Positions 2,808-11,015 of a DNA stretch of 11,015 nucleotides are shown here, piece by piece. The stretch covers positions 1-11,015 of the forward strand of contig JADGKB010000211.1 in NCBI GenBank assembly GCA_027604185.1, written 5' to 3'. The translations under genes were made by a program, and so were the position numbers. Origin of the DNA: Boothiomyces macroporosus (taxonomy: Eukaryota > Chytridiomycota > Chytridiomycetes > Rhizophydiales > Terramycetaceae). The notes beneath the pieces were generated by a model. It saw nothing but the letters and a program-made list of their open reading frames with translations. It did no database searches and was not told the DNA's origin. Positions within the stretch are counted from its first letter, which is position 1; each line of letters starts with the position of its first letter.

Positions 2808-3331
2808 ATGGACGGCTTGGAGGAATCTGCAATGAAACCGCCTGTCAACGGGTAAGCCAGCACTAACTTGGGTTCTTTTTATATAAACGAGAAATAAAGC
2901 CATTCCTGATGCAGGAATATGGAATCACGCAATCTAATCAAATAACTTCACTATCAGCCAAAAGATGGGCACTTGAACCCAAATCAATAAAAGAGAAATA
3001 TCGACAGATAGCAAGGGAGCAGTTCAAAGCATACAAAGCACTCAAAAAACCAGTTCAAAAAACAAACAACAGACTAGCAAACTTGAATGCAATGCCGCTA
3101 TTCATTGAATTCAAAGAAAGTAATCGAAATTTCGCAGAAACCAACACAAGCTCTATTCTTGTGCCAAAAGTTAATTCACCAAATTTGCTACCCCAGTTAA
3201 ATTATCAGCAAACTCAATATAATCGTAGAATTTGTGACACGACTAGCATATATTGTAAATCTAATCTTTCCAATGCCAACCCATGTATTGCATATCCACC
3301 ACGCGACGATCAAGAGCCCTTTCGTCATTAA
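2808..3331 (+). CDS. HMG-box (MATA-type) DNA-binding protein 2, noncanonical intron
   Basis: Proposed CDS is join(2808..2851, 2872..3331), giving 167 residues. Exon 1 encodes 14 residues ending K-P-P-V-N, and the split G codon joins to F-F-L-Y-K in exon 2, exactly rebuilding the start of an HMG box (residues 10-70; W47, Y58, Y69). This parallels P-L-N-G-F-F-L-Y-K in HMG gene 1. The 20-nt intron has a good donor (GTAAG) and branch element (CTAAC) but would end in GG. No AG acceptor can serve, because an in-frame TAA at 2865-2867 precedes the box frame with no AG between. A noncanonical acceptor, a sequence error or a disabled allele are the options. Beyond the box lies a polar Asn/Gln/Ser-rich tail of about 95 residues without a recognised domain. 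Likely a nuclear transcription factor; it ends 68 bp before SMU1. Confidence 0.75.
2852..2871 (+). other. Proposed 20-nt GT-GG intron in HMG gene 2
   Basis: The donor GTAAG, branch-like CTAAC and 20-nt length match the other short introns. Removal restores the HMG-box frame between N14 and F16. The last two bases (2870-2871) are GG rather than AG, one base away from a normal TTAG acceptor. Confidence 0.6.
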
Positions 3332-3399: not shown

Positions 3400-4992
3400 A
3401 TGGAAATTGAAAAAGACCAAGTTCTACGAGTTATTCAACAATATTTAAAAGAAAATAATTTGCATGATTCATTAAGAGCGCTTCAAGCGGAAACAAAGAT
3501 TCAGTTGAATTCAGTTCCAAATGACCAGATCTTACATTCAATCAGGGCCGGAAAGTACGACAAAGCCCTGGAGATTCTCTGTGATTTAGATATCAAGCCA
3601 AAGCTCTTGATTGATTTGTACGAGCTGATCATCAAGGAATTGATCGAAATGGACGAAAAGCAAGCAGCAAGGACATTACTGAGACAAACAGAGCCAATGG
3701 AAGTAATGAGGAATATTCAACCGGATAGATATTTGGAACTAGAGTCTCTAATAGCTCAACAAAATCCAAAACTGTGGCAGACAGATAAACAGAAATTACG
3801 AAATTCGATTGCAAATGAATTAGAGAAACACCTGGTTATTGTGGATGAAAATAGATTACTTACTATTATTGGCCAGTCAATCAAATGGCAAGTATCGCAA
3901 AATATGATTTCAACAGAATCTGCCTACGATTTATTCAAAGGACAAGTCCCAAAAGCACAATTTGAAGACGACGCCCCAGTAATCACTCTAAGCAAGACAA
4001 TCAAAGTAAGATATACTAATACAGTTTCCAAAAAAGCAGTATGCAGAATCTGGGTGTTTCTCACCAGATGGCAAGTACTTTGTTACAGGGTCTGTTGATG
4101 GTTTTATCGAAGTATGGAATTATTTCACTGGTAAACTGCGTACAGACTTGCTTTATCAGACAAATGTACATTTCTTTAACTGTAGGAAAACAACATGCTG
4201 ATGGAAACTGCCTGTCTTTGCTTGAACTTTAGTTCTGACTCTGAAATGCTGGTTTCTGGAGCACAGGATGGATCTATATCCGTTTGGAAAGTGTCCACTG
4301 GAGAGTGTGTAAAAACCTTTAGTTCTGCACATACACAAGGTATAACTTTTGTCCAGTTTGCCAAAGATCCATCACAAATACTTTCAGCGAGCTTTGATCA
4401 CACGATAAAGTAACATTATCTAATACAGAATACATGGAATGAAATCTGGCAAAACCTTGAAAATATACAAGGGACACACGTCTTTTGTCAATTCTGCAGT
4501 ATTTTCACATGACGGCTCTTGTATAATCAGTGGAAGCAGCGACGGAACTGTTAGAATCTGGAATGCGCTAACTACAGAGTGCATCCAAACGATAAATCTT
4601 GCAAACGGAGAACTAACTTCAAAAGGTGTAAATATACCAACAGTGCATACCGTGATCAGACACCCTAAAGACGAATCTTTTATAATTTCAAATCAAAGTA
4701 ACTACATTTATCACATTTCAATTAAAGGAAAGGTAATACGAGTTGATTGTAGCTGTTGAAACATTGGAAAATTGAGAAATCGAGTGATATTTTGGCAATT
4801 ACCATTTCACCAAGCTTCGAGTATATTTACGTGGTTAATGAAAAACAAGATTTTATATGTATAGGTGAAAATCAAGGCAATATCATATCTAGAATCAATT
4901 TAAAAGCAGATATAGTGGGATTAAAACATCATCCATTTTCTAATGTGATTGCAATATACACAGACGACGGAAACGTTAGTATATGGAAATAA
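3400..4992 (+). CDS. SMU1: SMU1, spliceosomal WD40 protein
   Basis: CDS is join(3400..4005, 4025..4165, 4186..4409, 4429..4732, 4753..4992), 504 residues; human SMU1 has 513. SMU1 works with RED/IK in the nucleus to activate the precatalytic spliceosome and is known to help with short introns. The N-terminus has a LisH motif (about residues 6-38: [11 protein letters not shown]) followed by a CTLH region with the family-typical [11 protein letters not shown]. The C-terminal half is a WD40 propeller with repeats ending E-V-W-N, S-V-W-K, R-I-W-N and S-I-W-K. Four introns of 19, 20, 19 and 20 nt lie only in the WD40 half; each join restores conserved sequence, such as C-F-S-P-D-G-K after the first. 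Without splicing the gene looks broken into five frames. The ATG at 3400 gives the family-typical N-terminus; a longer upstream reading overlaps the end of HMG gene 2. Confidence 0.97.
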
Positions 4993-5040
4993 ATAACAGT
5001 TACCCCGCTTTACGAGTTTTGCAAGGCTGTCAAATTTGAG

Positions 5041-5053
5041 GGGGCTGAGCCCC
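5041..5053 (+). other. Small GC hairpin between SMU1 and RGS gene
   Basis: GGGGC-TGA-GCCCC could fold into a five-pair stem with a three-base loop, about 50 bp after the SMU1 stop. It stands out as a GC-rich patch in AT-rich surroundings. Its function is unknown; it could lie in the SMU1 3' UTR. Confidence 0.3.
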
Positions 5054-5088
5054 ATTGAGGCAAATGAGGCACCAATGACCACTGGAGC

Positions 5089-5097
5089 TATAAAAAG
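5089..5097 (+). promoter_or_regulatory. TATA-like box of the RGS gene
   Basis: TATAAAAAG lies 22-30 bp upstream of the ATG at 5119. The same nonamer precedes the TFIIB gene on the other strand at nearly the same distance. Confidence 0.5.
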
Positions 5098-5118
5098 AAA
5101 ATTAAAGATGTAATATTA

Positions 5119-5804
5119 ATGACATCTATCAGTGATTCCAACTCCATTACCTCATTCAACAGCTATATCCCTAGTGAAAACACTTATCACCTGCCCCTCA
5201 TTGAACGAAAGCAACAAAAGCTGCACAAACTACTGGGAAATGGATTTCTGCTTGATGTATCTCAAAGTGAAATCCAATCCAAGGGATTTGAAGCCCTCAT
5301 ACAATCGAAAATCCCACTAACTTATTTCTTGATCAGTCTGATTAAAAATTATTCCTCAGAGTTGTTGGTAAGATTAGCTTAACCCAGTTTTTCTATCTTG
5401 ACGTTGAACAGTATGACAGGACTATTTTTGCAGACGCTGAATCTCAATTAGCCGAAGCTGAGCGTATCTACAAAATGTACTTGTTGACCTCATCTCCGCT
5501 AGAAATCAACGTTCCCTGCACCACAAAGAATATTGTCAGCAAACTGATGGAAGAAGGAAGGCTAAAGAAATGCTTCGAGCACGCAAAGACGCATGTATCT
5601 CAGCTGCTCTCTGAACGGTACAGAGAGCAAAAGAGTGAGATTTTCAATAATATCTGCAACAACGTAATCACAAAAAAAGAAGTCGACAATATTCTGGAAA
5701 TAATGAAACCATATTTCCCACGTGACTCGACTACAGACTCTATTGAAGTTCTAGTTAGCGAATTAGTGTACAAATTCTGTGAAAACCGTTTGAATAAATT
5801 CTAG
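5119..5804 (+). CDS. RGS-domain protein (regulator of G-protein signalling)
   Basis: CDS is join(5119..5367, 5388..5804), 221 residues. The RGS domain spans about residues 57-161. Landmarks are F-F-Y-L-D-V-E-Q-Y (84-92), matching the F-W-x-x-x-E-E-F helix, A-E-R-I-Y-K-M-Y (107-114) and L-E-I-N-V (121-125), whose Asn is the conserved Galpha-contacting one. RGS proteins speed GTP hydrolysis by heterotrimeric Galpha subunits at the membrane. A Ser/Thr-rich N-terminus precedes the domain and a helical tail of about 60 residues follows. One 20-nt intron splits the domain at residue 83/84; the join is exact in frame. The first conserved Asn of the family (the E-N before the F-W helix) appears to be Leu82, so GAP activity may be weak or altered. 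No DEP, PX or membrane segment is present. It ends 45 bp before U1-70K. Confidence 0.88.
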
Positions 5805-5849
5805 TTTTACATTCATTTTTTTTCTGATCACAATTACCATCACTCTGGA

Positions 5850-6834
5850 ATGACTTCGCAGCTTCCGCCAAACTTGTTGAGATTATTTGCACCTCGACCA
5901 CCATTACCATACCTACCTCCAGTAGATCCAGATCCAAAAAATCGTAAATTACCAAAATACACTGGAGTTGCAAAGTACTTGGAGGAACATAAAACGCATG
6001 ATTTGGATTACATCCCAACGGAAACGATGGCTCAAAAGCAGCAGAAGCGAGTATGATTTGTTTAATTGTAGATGGAGGAAAAGAAGGAAGCAATTGCTAA
6101 AAAAGCGGTTAAAATGAGAGAAATGTGGGATCCGCTTAATGACAAGAATGCAACATCAGACCCTTACAAAACATTATTCATTTCAAATTTAGTAATCAGT
6201 GTTAATCTAGGCATACGAAACTACCGAAGCGCAATTGCGAAAGGTAATGGAAGCATACGGGGAAGTTAAACATGTAGATTCTCTTAACCGTAGGTGTTTA
6301 CTGTCCAGGATCATAATAGAGAACGATCGAAAGGATACGCATTTGTAGAATTTGAAAAAGAGAGCGGAATGAAAGTTGCGTACAAGGAAGCTGAAGGTGT
6401 AAAGTTAAATGGAAGGAGGATGCTGGTGGATGTTGAACGTGGACGAACGGTTAAAGGATGGCTGCCAAAGAAGCTTGGAGGAGGGCTTGGAAAAAAGAGA
6501 GTGGGACATCCACCAAGACAATTTCATAATCACACTCGTGCAACTCCTAAAGAACGGCCTGTTGAAAGTAGGTCAGAGAGAAAAGATAGTCGGTCTGATA
6601 GGGACCGCGAAAGGCCTTCAGATAGAGACAGGGACAGAAATGATAGAGATCGTGAAAGATATGATAGGGATAAATCATATAGGGGACCTCGATCGGATCG
6701 TGACAGATATGATCATCGAAGCGACAGAAGAACATACCACGATAGAGACTCTGAGCGTCGCTGGGATGACAGAAGAATGGATGACCGCAGAGATGACCGC
6801 GGAAGGTAAGTGGTACTAATCCAGGCGTTATTAA
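5850..6834 (+). CDS. SNRNP70: U1 snRNP 70-kDa protein (U1-70K)
   Basis: CDS is join(5850..6050, 6072..6191, 6211..6273, 6294..6805, 6825..6834), 301 residues. U1-70K binds stem-loop I of U1 snRNA and helps U1 snRNP recognise 5' splice sites. The N-terminus has the family hallmark L-P-P-N-L-L-x-L-F-A-P-R (5-16). M-W-D-P (about 86-89) precedes the RRM (about 99-175), with RNP2 L-F-I-S-N-L (102-107) and RNP1 K-G-Y-A-F-V-E-F (141-148). The invariant V-D-V-E-R-G-R-T-V-K-G-W (173-184) follows, then a Gly-rich patch and an Arg/Asp/Ser-rich tail from about 214, shorter than in animals. Introns are 21, 19, 20 and 19 nt. The last intron (6806-6824) has a perfect TACTAAT and leaves a terminal coding exon of only 10 nt; if it is retained, the donor itself supplies a TAA stop at 6807. 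Confidence 0.97.
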
Positions 6835-6853
6835 AAAGTATAATATATATCAA

Positions 6854-7208
6854 TTATATTTCATATTCCTCTTTGGTTTTAGTAGTAAGTGATAATGCAT
6901 GTAATCCTTGTTTAAGTTCATCCCCAAGAATCGAATAAATCAACCTGTGTCTCTGAACCAACGGTTTTCCTTTAAATTCATCCGATACTACAGTAACCCT
7001 ATCTTAACACCAATTACCTAAAATGGGTTTCAATAGCATCCACACCTCGCATTGCGGAATGCTTTGCATGCTTGGAGCTATCATCAATGATATCGAGAAA
7101 GGTTGGGTTCAACGCTAGAGTTAATTTGCTTTCTATTTGTGAGTAAACTGGTCCTTTTTGAGTCATGAATTCCTTTAGAAAAGTTGATTTGAACCTTTTG
7201 AAAATCAT
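6854..7208 (-). CDS. BOL1: BolA-family protein, BolA1/BOL1-like
   Basis: CDS is complement(join(6854..6998, 7018..7208)), 111 residues. BolA proteins partner monothiol glutaredoxins in [2Fe-2S] handling, and BOL1-type members act in mitochondrial Fe-S cluster delivery. The BolA fold covers about residues 22-106: L-D-I-I-D-D-S-S-K-H (38-47), E-T-H-F-R-V (60-65), then F-K-G-K-x-L-V-Q-R-H-R-L-I-Y (72-85) with the signature R-H-R, and H-A-L-S (97-100). A 19-nt intron splits the Arg64 codon. The first ATG (7208) gives a basic, phenylalanine-rich, acid-poor stretch (M-I-F-K-R-F-K-S-T-F) that could be a mitochondrial presequence; Met15 is an alternative start. The frame also runs upstream to a GTG but has no earlier ATG. 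Its stop lies 19 bp from the U1-70K stop, so the transcripts probably overlap. Confidence 0.93.
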
Positions 7209-7343
7209 GAAAAAAGAGGTTGAATTCTCCACCACAAAAAAATAATTTGGAGTGGAGATAGAGTTAGACCTTCTTGGCTATGTATCCTGGAGGACAGGGA
7301 TAATGTGTTGGAGATGTGGTGTAAATTTAAACAGGAATATTTA

Positions 7344-8282
7344 TTAAGAATCTTCTTTGTTTAGACATATTATTCGGTACGCATTACGCAAAGTGTTTTC
7401 CGCACAGTGTACAGCACCGGATATTTCATGTGCAGACTTGGGATCGTTTGACATAGAAGTGGCATAGTAGATACAAGCGCCGACTATCGTAATAGGAGAC
7501 TTTCCTGTTAGCAATCCTTTTCCGGTAACTAATTGGCAAGTTTCTTCAGCAGTTTTGATTACTTGTTTATCCAGCGACAGCAAGCTGCCAAATCTTCTAA
7601 TATGAGTCAGTAGAAAGATTGAATCTTGTTCTACTGGGTGTGTTTTGAGAATTGGTTTGATGATATTGAAGCAACTGCCAATCAGTCTCTTTGGAGTAAG
7701 AGTCAGGTAGCTAATCTCTTTAAAAGATCGTTCAGCATGGTGCATCCTACAGGCTATAAACAGACAAGTGGCGATAACAGCATTAGTAGGCTTACCCCGC
7801 AATAGCTTCTCATCGTCAACCTTTAGTTTTAGATAAAAATAAACCTTTTTGAATAGCTGCTTTGCCGAGTCTGAAACTGCTTTTGGTAAATTGATTTTAT
7901 CAGCCATTTGTTGGATAATCTGAAACGATTCCATCAAATTGTGATAATTCTTACCTTTGGAAACCATTTGTTGAGTCCTGCTCAAGATTTTTGATATTGT
8001 CTTTCCATCATCAATCACCGCAGTAGAGTCCAAATAGTCACTTCCCATCAAATGATTTGAATTTCCTACCCTATTTGGATTGACAGAATTCTTATCATCA
8101 CTTGAAAATGTCCTCCATTCTGGTCTGGTGTCTATCAATCTGCTTCCAAGTATAAGGCCGCAACTTCCGCAAATCAAGTCGCCCCTTGCAAAGTCTTCTA
8201 CAATATTTGGGATTTCATCCCGGCAGTCCGAGCATATTAAGTACAAATTTAAATCCTGGTTGGTCATTACTGCTGTTGGCAT
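7344..8282 (-). CDS. GTF2B: Transcription factor TFIIB
   Basis: TFIIB (312 residues, close to 316 in human) bridges TBP on the promoter and RNA polymerase II and helps set the start site. The N-terminal zinc ribbon uses Cys17, Cys20, Cys38 and Cys41, with the family-typical G-D-L-I-C-G-x-C-G-L. The B-reader/linker contains I-D-T-R-P-E-W-R-T-F and N-R-V-G. Two cyclin folds follow (about 108-195 and 205-300), including A-C-R-M-H-H-A-E-R-S-F-K-E-I in the first. There is no intron. The first ATG (8282) is chosen; Met6 is possible. A TATAAAAAG element lies 24-32 bp upstream. The stop codon overlaps an AATAAA, so the 3' end may form very soon after it. Confidence 0.97.
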   Translation of the reverse strand: MPTAVMTNQDLNLYLICSDCRDEIPNIVEDFARGDLICGSCGLILGSRLIDTRPEWRTFSSDDKNSVNPNRVGNSNHLMGSDYLDSTAVIDDGKTISKILSRTQQMVSKGKNYHNLMESFQIIQQMADKINLPKAVSDSAKQLFKKVYFYLKLKVDDEKLLRGKPTNAVIATCLFIACRMHHAERSFKEISYLTLTPKRLIGSCFNIIKPILKTHPVEQDSIFLLTHIRRFGSLLSLDKQVIKTAEETCQLVTGKGLLTGKSPITIVGACIYYATSMSNDPKSAHEISGAVHCAENTLRNAYRIICLNKEDS

Positions 8283-8305
8283 TTTCAATTATCTCTTTGT
8301 TGTCT

Positions 8306-8314
8306 CTTTTTATA
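8306..8314 (-). promoter_or_regulatory. TATA-like box of TFIIB
   Basis: On the minus strand this reads TATAAAAAG, 24-32 bp upstream of the TFIIB ATG, the same nonamer as before the RGS gene. Confidence 0.5.
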
Positions 8315-8517
8315 CTGGTGGTGAGTCATCGGATATTAAGCTGTTTCGGATAAACACAAATTAAATGGCAATCCAACACTGATATTTTCCACTGATTCAA
8401 ATCACCTGAGTGCATACAGTGTGTATTGTATTCTGACATGAAAGCAGAAAATAGTTATCCTGCAATTCAAGTACTGTCGCTCCTGTCAAAGAGTCCTATG
8501 ACACATGCAATAAGCTA

Positions 8518-8525
8518 GCCAATCA
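8518..8525 (+). promoter_or_regulatory. Possible CCAAT box upstream of PSMA3
   Basis: GCCAATCA lies about 90 bp upstream of the PSMA3 ATG, a typical position for a CCAAT element bound by the HAP/NF-Y complex. The match is short and could be chance. Confidence 0.3.
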
Positions 8526-8610
8526 AATTCATTCAATTCGTAGATTCAAAAAAGAAGAGATCAACAATATTTTACAAAGCCACTTTTTGACCCTTGTCTA
8601 AAATTCAAAA

Positions 8611-9467
8611 ATGGGTTCAATCGGAACAGGAGTAAGAAATTCCCTAACCAAGTACGATCTCTCTGCGTCCACTTACGCTCCAGATGGAAGAATTTTTCAA
8701 GTCGAGTACGCAATGAAAGCGGTCGAGAACAGCGGGTATTTCCATTTTAAAACAGGACATGTATAGGGATTAAAGCTGTCGATGGTATTGTATTAGCACA
8801 TGAAAAGTTGATTACTTCGAAATTACTAGTATCTCAATCAAACAACCGCATTCAGACTATAGATACACATATCGGATTTGTTGCTGCTGGACTACTTGCA
8901 GATTCAAGACATTTGGCTGGAAGAGCAAGAGAGGAAGCCGAAAGTTACAAAAATATTTACCGTCAACCAATTCCATCAATGATGATTGCTAAAAGAGTTG
9001 CTGGTTATGTTTCAGCATTTACATTATATTCATCTGTAAGACCATTTGGCTTGGCTTCTATCATTGGATCAGTAGATGTCCATGGACCAGCGTTATATAT
9101 GTTTGAACCATCTGGATTGTATTACGTACTTTTTCATGCTAACAAAAGGGTTACAATGCAACCGCTGTTGGAAAAGGATCTACCCTAGCCAAAACAGAGC
9201 TTGAAAAATTAGATTTCTCTACTCTGACTTGTGAAGAGGCAGTCAAGCATGCTGCAAGAATGTAATTGGTATTAACCGTAGTATGTATTTAGTTCACGAC
9301 GATGCCAAAGATAAAGATTTTGAACTAGAGTTGACTTGGATTTCTCCTCAGTCCGGCAACAAGCATAAAGTAGTACCAAAGGAATTGAAGGATGAAGCCG
9401 AAAGATTAGCAAAGGTAATTTATCTTGACTTTAGGCAGCATTGGATGATGGAATGGATGAAGATTGA
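8611..9467 (+). CDS. PSMA3: 20S proteasome subunit alpha 7 (PSMA3/PRE10)
   Basis: CDS is join(8611..8631, 8653..8735, 8756..9125, 9149..9261, 9282..9414, 9435..9467), 250 residues; human PSMA3 has 255. It is one of seven alpha subunits in the outer rings of the 20S core, which gate substrate entry. The start M-G-S-I-G-T-G-Y-D-L-S-A-S-T runs into the alpha-subunit signature [24 protein letters not shown]-like [14 protein letters not shown] and F-E-L-E-L-T-W then follow as in PSMA3, and the acidic C-terminus ends D-D-G-M-D-E-D. Five introns (21, 20, 23, 20 and 20 nt) interrupt it, the most in this window. Exon 1 codes only seven residues and the last only ten plus the stop. Each join restores conserved sequence. 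The stop is TGA. Confidence 0.97.
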
Positions 9468-9578
9468 TTTAAATAAACCCATCTCGTTATTAGTATTTCT
9501 AGTCTCTTATTAGTGTGATTTACCGTTGGGCTTGTGATTTCCTTTTTCATGCTGTCCACATGAAACTTTCCAAATTCA

Positions 9579-11015
9579 ATGCTATCAGAAAAAGAAATCC
9601 CAATAGAAGAGAGATTACCACTGGCGGTGCTGTTATACATTCAATTACAGCTTAAACTAGTAGAGCTACGAAACTCCTCGAAAGATACGAGAGCTGAAGA
9701 TGAATACCAACACTATATTCAAATGACCATGCTGCGACTGAAAATACATTACGAATTTACTGAGCAAGGTACACTTTACTGATTCAGAAATTGAGTGGAT
9801 GGATGAAATGGTGTTACCTGATATCCCTGTACTGGAAACCTTGGAGCAACGAATGATTGAAAAGATCCGCATTGAAGATAACATCCATGCTGCTCAGTCT
9901 CTCGTTGCGCACATTCTGTATATACTATTGGACATTAAAGGGAATAACCCTGTGGAATACGATGCACGATTACGTACTGGATTAAAGAGCATGGCAATGA
10001 AAATTATGGATTATGATTCGAAAAGTTTAAAAATGAAAGAACCAAATGATCAGAGCTATTTAGATGAAGCAACAGTGGAGAGTTCTGATAAGTGTGATGA
10101 CAAGCAAAAGAAAGCGCCTTTTATATTATTCTTGGCCGAATGTGAAGTTATCAAAAAGATTGCCGAGATTAATAGTAGTTTGTCAGAGGCAGCACCAAGC
10201 AAAGAAGAGGAAAGTGATAGCAAGCGGCTATCTAGATGGGCAGGTGTCGGATTAGCAGCAGTAGGTGGAGGGCTCCTAATTGGAGTAACTGGGGGTCTGG
10301 CTACTCCGCTTATTGCTGCTGGATTGGGAACACTGGGAACGAGTCTGGGAGTTGCTGGTGCCGCTGCTAGTTTTACTGCTTTGGGGTCAGTAACCGGAGC
10401 AGCTATTGTAGGAACATTGTTTGGAGTATCTGGGGCAGGACTAGCAGGCTACAAAATCAATAGGCGCTTAAAAGATCTGGAAGAGTTCTTCTTTACTCCA
10501 ATCAACGATGTTCCTCCAGGGTTGTCGTACTACATTGCAATCTCTGGATGGCTTACCGACATCAATGACAGCACTAACCAATGGGCACATTTATCTGACT
10601 GGAATCCAATGGTAGAAATCCTGACTTTGAGTTTTGATAGACAGAGCTTGGTTGATCTAACTACTGCTGCTTCTGAATTTATCAAGACTAGTTTGATTAC
10701 CTATGGTGCTAGTGGAATAGCTGCAGTTACCGCCGCTTCTACGTTGGCGTTTGCATTAGGGTGGCCAGTTGCGCTTTTGCAAACCGCTGCCATGCTGGAT
10801 AACCCATGGAATATGGCACTGGATAAAGCTGAGCAAGCAGGCAGGCACTTGGCTAGATCTGTATTGGCAACTCATGTTGGTGGAAAACGACCAGTGACTT
10901 TGATTGGACATGGAATGGGTGCAAGAGTTATAGTATACTGTCTATTGGAACTATACGCAATGACTGATATCGAATGTGATATATACAGTATGATTGACAG
11001 TGTCTACCTTTTTGG
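9579..11015 (+). CDS. TMCO4: TMCO4/MIL1-like DUF726 membrane protein, 3' end off window
   Basis: CDS is join(9579..9768, 9788..>11015), about 472 residues within the window, open at the right edge. DUF726 proteins (human TMCO4, yeast MIL1) have membrane segments followed by an alpha/beta-hydrolase-like domain. A charged helical N-terminal region (1-210) precedes a Gly/Ala-rich hydrophobic stretch (about 214-286) with several potential membrane segments. Next come family features I-A-I-S-G-W-L, a second hydrophobic region, and D-N-P-W-N (about 401-405). The region P-V-T-L-I-G-H-G-M-G-A-R-V-I matches the nucleophile elbow, but the expected Ser is Gly439, so catalysis at this site looks impossible. 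A 19-nt intron (9769-9787) splits codon 64. The ATG at 9579 is the first in frame, 111 bp after PSMA3; an upstream exon cannot be excluded. Confidence 0.92.

Follow-up and report, generated by a model that had tools for sequence, protein, structure and literature searches.

Introns near the lower limit of length have been described from heterotrich ciliates (15-16 nt), mikrocytids (16-17 nt) and nucleomorphs (18-21 nt) (PMC10245619), and a 23-nt intron from Trichomonas was in 2025 called among the shortest, comparable only with those of Stentor and Bigelowiella (PMC12316389). An initial annotation of the stretch studied here—contig C211, 11,015 nt long and hereafter the window, from an assembly of 15,203,306 bases in 216 contigs—proposed sixteen introns of 19-23 nt in six genes and named nucleomorphs and heterotrichs as precedents; both are borne out by the literature, and mikrocytids have to be added (PMC10245619). 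Within what DNA can reveal, the proposal that an opisthokont has spliceosomal introns of about 20 nt is upheld: we conclude with high confidence that these segments are genuine U2-type introns of a Rhizophydiales chytrid near Terramyces, and that nearly all recognisable introns sampled from its genome are about 19-22 nt long.

The introns of Stentor coeruleus (15-16 nt) resemble those of the window in being uniformly ultrashort, mostly GT-AG and equipped with a short tail after the branch A (PMC9505925), and heterotrich ciliates, like this chytrid, are free-living (PMC10245619). The 3′ tail is similar in both (5 nt in Stentor, 5-6 nt here) and the difference in length lies in the 5′ part (PMC9505925): the branch A sits at position 10-11 in Stentor and at 14-15 here, Stentor has no strong branch consensus whereas a clear YTAAY is seen here, and the hosts are unrelated. 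All five major small nuclear RNAs (snRNAs) have been found in Stentor coeruleus (PMC9505925). Chlorarachniophyte nucleomorph introns span nearly the same length range as ours (PMC10245619), but nucleomorphs are relic, extremely reduced genomes, in contrast to a 15.2-Mb fungal assembly. Mikrocytos mackini shares with the window a narrow size range and conserved signals, in introns of 16-17 nt, but has 224 introns and a reduced spliceosome of 17-19 proteins (PMC10245619), compared with about 1.5 introns per coding kb in our sample and several factors beyond the core here. Paramecium and Nyctotherus also have an ultrashort main class, of about 25 nt (PMC5014332), although their introns are longer than those described here and the hosts differ.

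The present genome shares with known ultrashort-intron genomes a narrow length mode below about 25 nt, seen in 190-201 kb of 15.2 Mb, and appears to lack the strong reduction of genome or spliceosome (15.2 Mb, with SF1, a U2AF65-like protein, Slu7, Prp18, SMU1 and U1-70K present); its host is a chytrid fungus and belongs to none of the heterotrich, nucleomorph or mikrocytid lineages. None of the papers listed by our literature searches, judged from titles and abstract openings, described a fungus in which introns of about 20 nt are the norm. As far as we have seen, this is a new fungal instance of a known phenomenon, unusual for its spliceosome factors beyond the core and its 15-Mb genome.

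Introns and genes of the window

All sixteen segments lie exactly where the initial annotation placed them, are 19-23 nt long (six of 19 nt, seven of 20, two of 21 and one of 23) and run from GTA to AG. The motif YTRAY is present in 14 of them and YTRA in all 16, with its A always 5 or 6 nt from the 3′ end. By the genome-wide comparisons given below, the overall pattern is far beyond chance. Minor (U12-type) introns carry a long conserved 5′ splice site, RTATCCTT, and none of the sixteen starts with one.

Read through, the segments break the frames of all six genes; excised, they leave six continuous proteins, and Pfam matches and alignments to solved chains uphold the claim that their removal restores conserved protein in frame. 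Four introns interrupt the SMU1 gene (3400..4992, like all genes below on the + strand unless stated), at 4006..4024 (19 nt, GTAAGATATACTAATACAG), 4166..4185 (20 nt, GTACATTTCTTTAACTGTAG), 4410..4428 (19 nt, GTAACATTATCTAATACAG) and 4733..4752 (20 nt, GTAATACGAGTTGATTGTAG); residues 2-504 of the spliced 504-aa product align to a solved SMU1 chain (E 2.3e-140) with a few small gaps, none of them at a junction. The PSMA3 (proteasome alpha-7) gene (8611..9467) has five, at 8632..8652 (21 nt, GTAAGAAATTCCCTAACCAAG), 8736..8755 (20 nt, GTATTTCCATTTTAAAACAG), 9126..9148 (23 nt, GTACTTTTTCATGCTAACAAAAG), 9262..9281 (20 nt, GTAATTGGTATTAACCGTAG) and 9415..9434 (20 nt, GTAATTTATCTTGACTTTAG); residues 1-246 of its 250 aa align to a solved PSMA3 chain (E 3.5e-85), again with a few small gaps and none at a junction, and three of the five junctions fall inside the Pfam Proteasome domain. 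Both solved chains are presumably human.

The U1-70K (SNRNP70) gene (5850..6834; 301 aa once spliced) has introns at 6051..6071 (21 nt, GTATGATTTGTTTAATTGTAG), 6192..6210 (19 nt, GTAATCAGTGTTAATCTAG) and 6274..6293 (20 nt, GTAGATTCTCTTAACCGTAG) and a probable fourth at 6806..6824 (19 nt, GTAAGTGGTACTAATCCAG). The Pfam domains U1snRNP70_N (residues 4-91) and RRM_1 (102-171) cover three of the four junctions; the last intron has a perfect motif, and the caveat attached to it from the start stands, in that its excision alters only the final residues of the C-terminus and the coding evidence is neutral. In the RGS-domain gene (5119..5804; 221 aa spliced), with one intron at 5368..5387 (20 nt, GTAAGATTAGCTTAACCCAG), the RGS domain (residues 57-169) extends across the junction, as does the BolA domain (E 3.8e-31) in the BolA-like gene on the - strand (6854..7166; 97 aa spliced; intron at 6999..7017, 19 nt, GTAATTGGTGTTAAGATAG). 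The TMCO4/DUF726 gene (9579..11015; 472 residues, running off the end of the window) matches DUF726 with E 2.8e-64; since its intron (9769..9787, 19 nt, GTACACTTTACTGATTCAG) lies upstream of the recognised domain, its support comes from frame and motif.

Frames that break at every segment would also be found if these were assembly or sequencing errors in real genes. Errors would not, however, produce GT-AG ends, a branch motif and a mode at 19-22 nt across 20 contigs, and we give this explanation practically no weight.

The count of sixteen introns in six genes stands for those listed, and the total rises to 17 introns in seven genes with one that had been missed, at 2852..2871 (+ strand, 20 nt, GTAAGCCAGCACTAACTTGG) in the second HMG-box gene of the window (2808..3331, + strand). 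It has GT...GG ends and a CTAAC branch motif, so that the statement that all window introns are GT-AG holds for the original sixteen and fails for this one. Its excision restores PVNGFFLYKRE, matching the neighbouring HMG paralogue, and the spliced protein of 167 aa matches HMG_box (2.8e-8) and is 49% identical over 81 aa to the product of the HMG gene at 1281-1622; the downstream frame of 2808-3331 alone, without splicing, gave no HMG_box match in Pfam. Because the flanks carry identical letters the exact cut can slide, yet no slide yields an AG end. A 40-nt GT-AG alternative was rejected, as it breaks the frame. None of the gene-finder runs described below called 2852-2871, and GT-GG introns as a class formed no length peak with the gene finder in 201 kb.

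The two divergent HMG-box genes (1281-1622 and 2808-3331) stand within about 2 kb, a pair that we guess may be mating-type-like. Elsewhere in the window, an apparent partial tRNA copy at the contig start (25-56) repeats, by eye, the 3′ part of a tRNA-Leu (AAG) gene (608-691), and 1979-2371 encodes a small protein with two cysteine-rich repeats and a hydrophobic start, perhaps secreted as judged by eye, for which there was no Pfam match.

Intron lengths across the genome

Intron length was further assessed in 190 kb, made up of one 10-kb stretch from each of 19 other contigs; adding the window gives 201,015 bases or 1.3% of the genome. In the 190 kb, spans of the form GTA...YTRAY...AG numbered 61, 81, 47 and 27 at 19, 20, 21 and 22 nt, whereas a first-order Markov model predicts 13-15 at each length. 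When only spans with the branch A 4-7 nt before the end were counted, 199 spans of 19-22 nt were found against 48.5 +/- 7.0 expected from ten sets generated under a second-order model. The adjoining ranges showed no excess under a second-order model, with 81 spans against 77.9 at 12-18 nt and 46 against 44.4 at 23-26 nt. A genome-wide pattern permitting 18-50 nt, GTAAN{5,35}CTAACN{2,4}AG, gave 1248 matches, and 67 of the first 100 (from contigs C1-C4, with a few duplicate places) were 19-22 nt long.

A Viterbi gene finder was trained on 80 long open frames, given GT and AG as its only splice signals and a flat length distribution of 10-120 nt, and run on the 201,015 bases at one fixed setting for GT-AG and every control. 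Of the 231 GT-AG introns called by this free-length finder, 112 were 19-22 nt long (33, 47, 23 and 9, respectively), compared with 14/227, 19/244, 12/224, 11/213 and 5/226 for five control dinucleotide pairs. When 31 donor/acceptor pairs were compared at a maximum length of 60 (GT combined with each of 16 acceptors, and AG with 15 more donors), GT-AG had 125 of 210 introns at 19-22 nt and was the only pair with a peak, the other 30 having 4-20 in that range. The sharp mode at 19-20 nt that the initial annotation had named as supporting evidence is present in the 201-kb sample.

A second, motif-based finder, whose motif and length priors favour 19-22 nt, predicted 245 introns in 132 genes with at least 300 coding bases, 50 genes being intronless, a density of 1.46 introns per coding kb; extrapolated from this 1.3% to the full 15.2 Mb, the total would be some 18,500 introns. 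Two species of Chytridiomycota have 3.93 introns per kb (PMC8476143, Table 1). In the window this finder recovered 15 of the 16 noted introns, missing 6806-6824, and made one extra call, 6568-6589, which is probably false. A YTRAY whose A precedes the end by 4-7 nt occurs in 167 of the 245 introns, mostly at 5 (89) or 6 (65) nt; counted from the 5′ end, the branch A of these 167 falls at position 14 (86), 15 (62), 16 (16) or 17 (3). The commonest starts are GTAA (140), GTAT (41), GTAC (24) and GTAG (21), and the 228 introns of known phase divide 100/71/57.

Six of nine finder proteins were tested against known proteins. With five predicted introns removed, COPB2 (contig C90) aligns with coatomer beta' over residues 1-466 (E 1e-226) with no gap at a junction; spliced MCM7 (contig C8; 725 residues) matches a solved MCM7 chain along residues 121-713 and, weakly, along 37-114; and the ERGIC-like, BING4-like, Brix and thioesterase products, once spliced, each match the corresponding Pfam domain. 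For Slu7, the Pfam model matches two exons independently of the gene finder; one match stops and the other starts at a single model position, with 17 nt between them, and it is there that the finder placed a 20-nt intron.

Selection for in-frame stops in introns whose length is a multiple of three (3n introns) is known from Paramecium. Among the finder introns, stops were more frequent in 3n introns (37/47 against 98/181, p 0.0025), but the finder detects stop-bearing 3n introns preferentially and the other frames of the same introns also carry many stops (62/94, p 0.17), so we do not claim such selection. A count of motifs for stopless 21-nt introns hidden within exons gave 7 sense and 3 antisense, no clear excess.

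Splicing machinery and the case for longer introns

A search for U1, U2 and U6 snRNAs found two U2 genes (142.2 and 135.4 bits, both over the cut-off), each holding GUGUAGUA, which includes GUAGUA, and one U6 (62.2 bits, over the cut-off), whose ACAGAG box lies on the strand complementary to the one shown. The U1 candidate begins AUACUUACCUG. Judged by these sequences, the 5′ splice sites should be able to pair with U1 and the branch sites with U2. Profile matches to SF1, Slu7 and Prp18 exceeded their cut-offs, a U2AF65-like gene on contig C2 has four introns of 19-20 nt according to the finder, and the genes for SMU1 and U1-70K are in the window itself.

These results bear on the possibility that the segments are removed from DNA, by programmed elimination like that of internal eliminated sequences (IES), and are not introns of RNA. 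Their small and uniform size recalls the short IESs of ciliates, and excision of the segments is itself inferred; however, IES boundaries are of TA type and these are GT-AG, the 19-22 nt peak is confined to GT-AG among the pairs compared, each of the sixteen noted introns has a branch motif able to pair with GUAGUA of U2 5-6 nt before its end, and the genome contains spliceosome genes and snRNAs. We regard DNA elimination as very improbable.

Several observations weigh against splicing of almost exclusively tiny introns. The U1 match, at 68.8 bits, is 0.7 below its cut-off of 69.5; the best U2AF65-like match reached 230.7 bits against a cut-off of 310.3, in a search that ignored introns, and the same search matched two of 14 control genomes, also below the cut-off; and the Pfam models RED_N and RED_C detected no RED, the protein that partners SMU1, although they were equally silent in the control genomes. 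A reversed-pattern control gave 1886 matches, more than the 1248 of the genome-wide pattern, so that the total is uninformative and only the length distribution speaks. The free-length finder is a rough tool, which within the window hit 11 of the 16 introns exactly and made eight other calls, one of 19 nt, while other settings recovered 6-13 of the 16 exactly and the first settings split genes into pieces. The motif-based finder put 236 of its 245 introns at 19-22 nt, a figure not independent for length since its prior favours that range, and in 78 of the 245 there is no YTRAY that has its A 4-7 nt from the end. Finally, under the second-order model, longer spans in the 190 kb also exceeded expectation, with 192 against 170.5 +/- 9.5 at 27-40 nt, 287 against 235.2 +/- 11.3 at 81-100 nt and 703 against 589.2 +/- 32.4 at 151-200 nt. 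This excess, for spans up to 200 nt, is diffuse, some 13-22%, and forms no peak; it may be compositional or reflect a few longer introns, and leaves room for a minority of the latter.

The same excess could also arise if a class of about 20 nt stood beside many ordinary introns of 50-150 nt missed by our methods, and two further observations fit such a mixture: the motif is present in seven of the 56 introns to which the finder gave lengths of 61-120 nt, and three pairs of tiny introns in tandem, with no exon between them (L006:89-131, L017:6978-7015 and L018:8325-8364), could be single introns of 38-43 nt. At least two of those seven (L008:1128-1247 and L010:4345-4460), however, start and finish with a complete tiny intron by eye; no longer length shows a peak; finder introns of 27-60 nt number 37, against 64-89 for the five control pairs; and in the window one of the 17 introns reaches 23 nt and none is longer. 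A mixed population therefore seems unlikely to us, and we prefer introns of about 19-22 nt as the near-universal form in the sample. The claim that all introns are this short is upheld for the sampled mode and has to be relaxed for a few elsewhere that may be 38-43 nt, as the three tandem pairs may be spliced either as two introns or as one. Both halves of the L017 pair end in GCTAATATAG, like the product of a tandem duplication.

Identical pattern matches recur at a distance in the genome (G000), on contig C2 near 287388 and 329984 and on contig C3 near 193597 and 215214, and contig C20 has equal protein matches near 74242 and 119309, which suggests large duplicated segments or duplication in the assembly.

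Host, mechanism and significance

Comparisons of MCM7, SMU1 and TFIIB agree with the initial annotation on an opisthokont host and identify it as a fungus of the Rhizophydiales (Chytridiomycota). Among the best 120 matches for MCM7, Terramyces sp. JEL0728 (91% identical over 81%) has the second-best score and Globomyces is 71% identical; the top score belongs to a 1143-residue Lingula protein with 51% identity and the fourth to a Brassica protein. A tree of 29 of the 120 MCM7 matches, chosen from named fungi with four metagenome rows added and Lingula and Brassica excluded, makes the protein sister to Terramyces sp. JEL0728 (100/98), a member of the Rhizophydiales and Terramycetaceae, in a clade with Globomyces, Gorgonomyces and Batrachochytrium (100/99). 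In a tree of 43 of the best 120 SMU1 matches, the window protein groups with Globomyces and three metagenome proteins (100/99), but the window has a long branch, Batrachochytrium stands apart from it and animals are found among the fungi. The best SMU1 scores among the matches listed are tied between Cladochytrium and Paraglomus, and the best named TFIIB matches among those listed are Batrachochytrium, Cladochytrium and Spizellomyces. Neolecta was considered as host and rejected, as all three proteins fall among chytrids. The only protein-database entry listed for the window's TFIIB derives from the window, so the assembly seems unannotated there.

Metagenome proteins similar to SMU1 (P0027, P0042 and P0086) and TFIIB (P0129 and P0151) end in K-V followed by three to eight residues, at shared places, as if translation had read into an intron starting with GT, which we note as a lead only. 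The MCM7 of Terramyces (P0182) is annotated from residue 142 of our MCM7 and spans three junctions without a gap, which speaks neither for nor against tiny introns in Terramyces. An insertion in the MCM7 of Globomyces was considered as a GT-AG intron, and back-translation made this impossible. Genomes of Rhizophydium megarrhizum, one of them assigned to Globomycetaceae, measure 15.36 Mb, and the paper that describes them mentions "intron" once, in its methods (PMC13391722).

Each of these introns is pared down to GTA at the 5′ splice site, a branch site resembling YTAAY whose A stands some 14-15 nt in from the 5′ end, and AG as the 3′ splice site 5-6 nt further on. Such an intron would probably be recognised by intron definition and an ordinary spliceosome, with U1 pairing with the 5′ splice site, and SF1/U2AF and then U2 recognising the branch site. 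As both sites could hardly be occupied together in the usual geometry, U1 would have to leave or shift early, and the intron would follow a compact path. For the human B complex the minimum between 5′ splice site and branch is estimated at about 52 nt, and human splicing in vitro needs about 50 nt for efficiency, compared with 14-15 nt here (PMC6692369). Human SMU1/RED is needed where this distance is short (PMC6692369); the problem is common to both systems and SMU1 is encoded in the window, although RED was undetected by Pfam models, and SMU1 may assist splicing here. For Stentor, avoidance of a steric clash has been conjectured (PMC9505925). The data themselves show the sequences, their spacing, the continuity of frames and proteins, the length mode of the sample and the presence of the genes and snRNAs named; from these we infer actual splicing, its order, the role of SMU1 and the standing of our sample for the genome.

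A broader joint reading is possible, if on the doubtful side. On it, this lineage would be the first among opisthokonts whose spliceosome is specialised for introns of about 20 nt, keeps a fixed 14-15 nt to the branch and 5-6 nt from there to the 3′ end, and works without the normal simultaneous occupancy by U1 and U2. Such a spliceosome may no longer splice long introns, longer insertions surviving mainly as back-to-back tiny introns, and the condition may span much of the Rhizophydiales, hidden by annotation with larger minimum intron lengths. In the Rhizophydiales genome C06, AUGUSTUS models reach a BUSCO score of 40.5% at the protein level against 76.9% at the genome level, a gap that its authors blame on fragmented models (PMC13391722). 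We suggest that missed tiny introns may lie behind it, a possible warning for public chytrid annotations; against this stands a JGI-annotated single-cell genome of the same species with 77.7% at the protein level (PMC13391722).

The finding touches the open question of the spliceosome's lower limit of intron length and of the changes needed to allow it. Terramyces sp. JEL0728, the closest relative with a name, has a collection number, which makes a culture plausible. Known ultrashort-intron organisms are distant from the usual models of splicing, whereas the splicing proteins of this chytrid align readily with those of animals and yeast; a chytrid host would make the question of minimum length testable by comparison and by structure.

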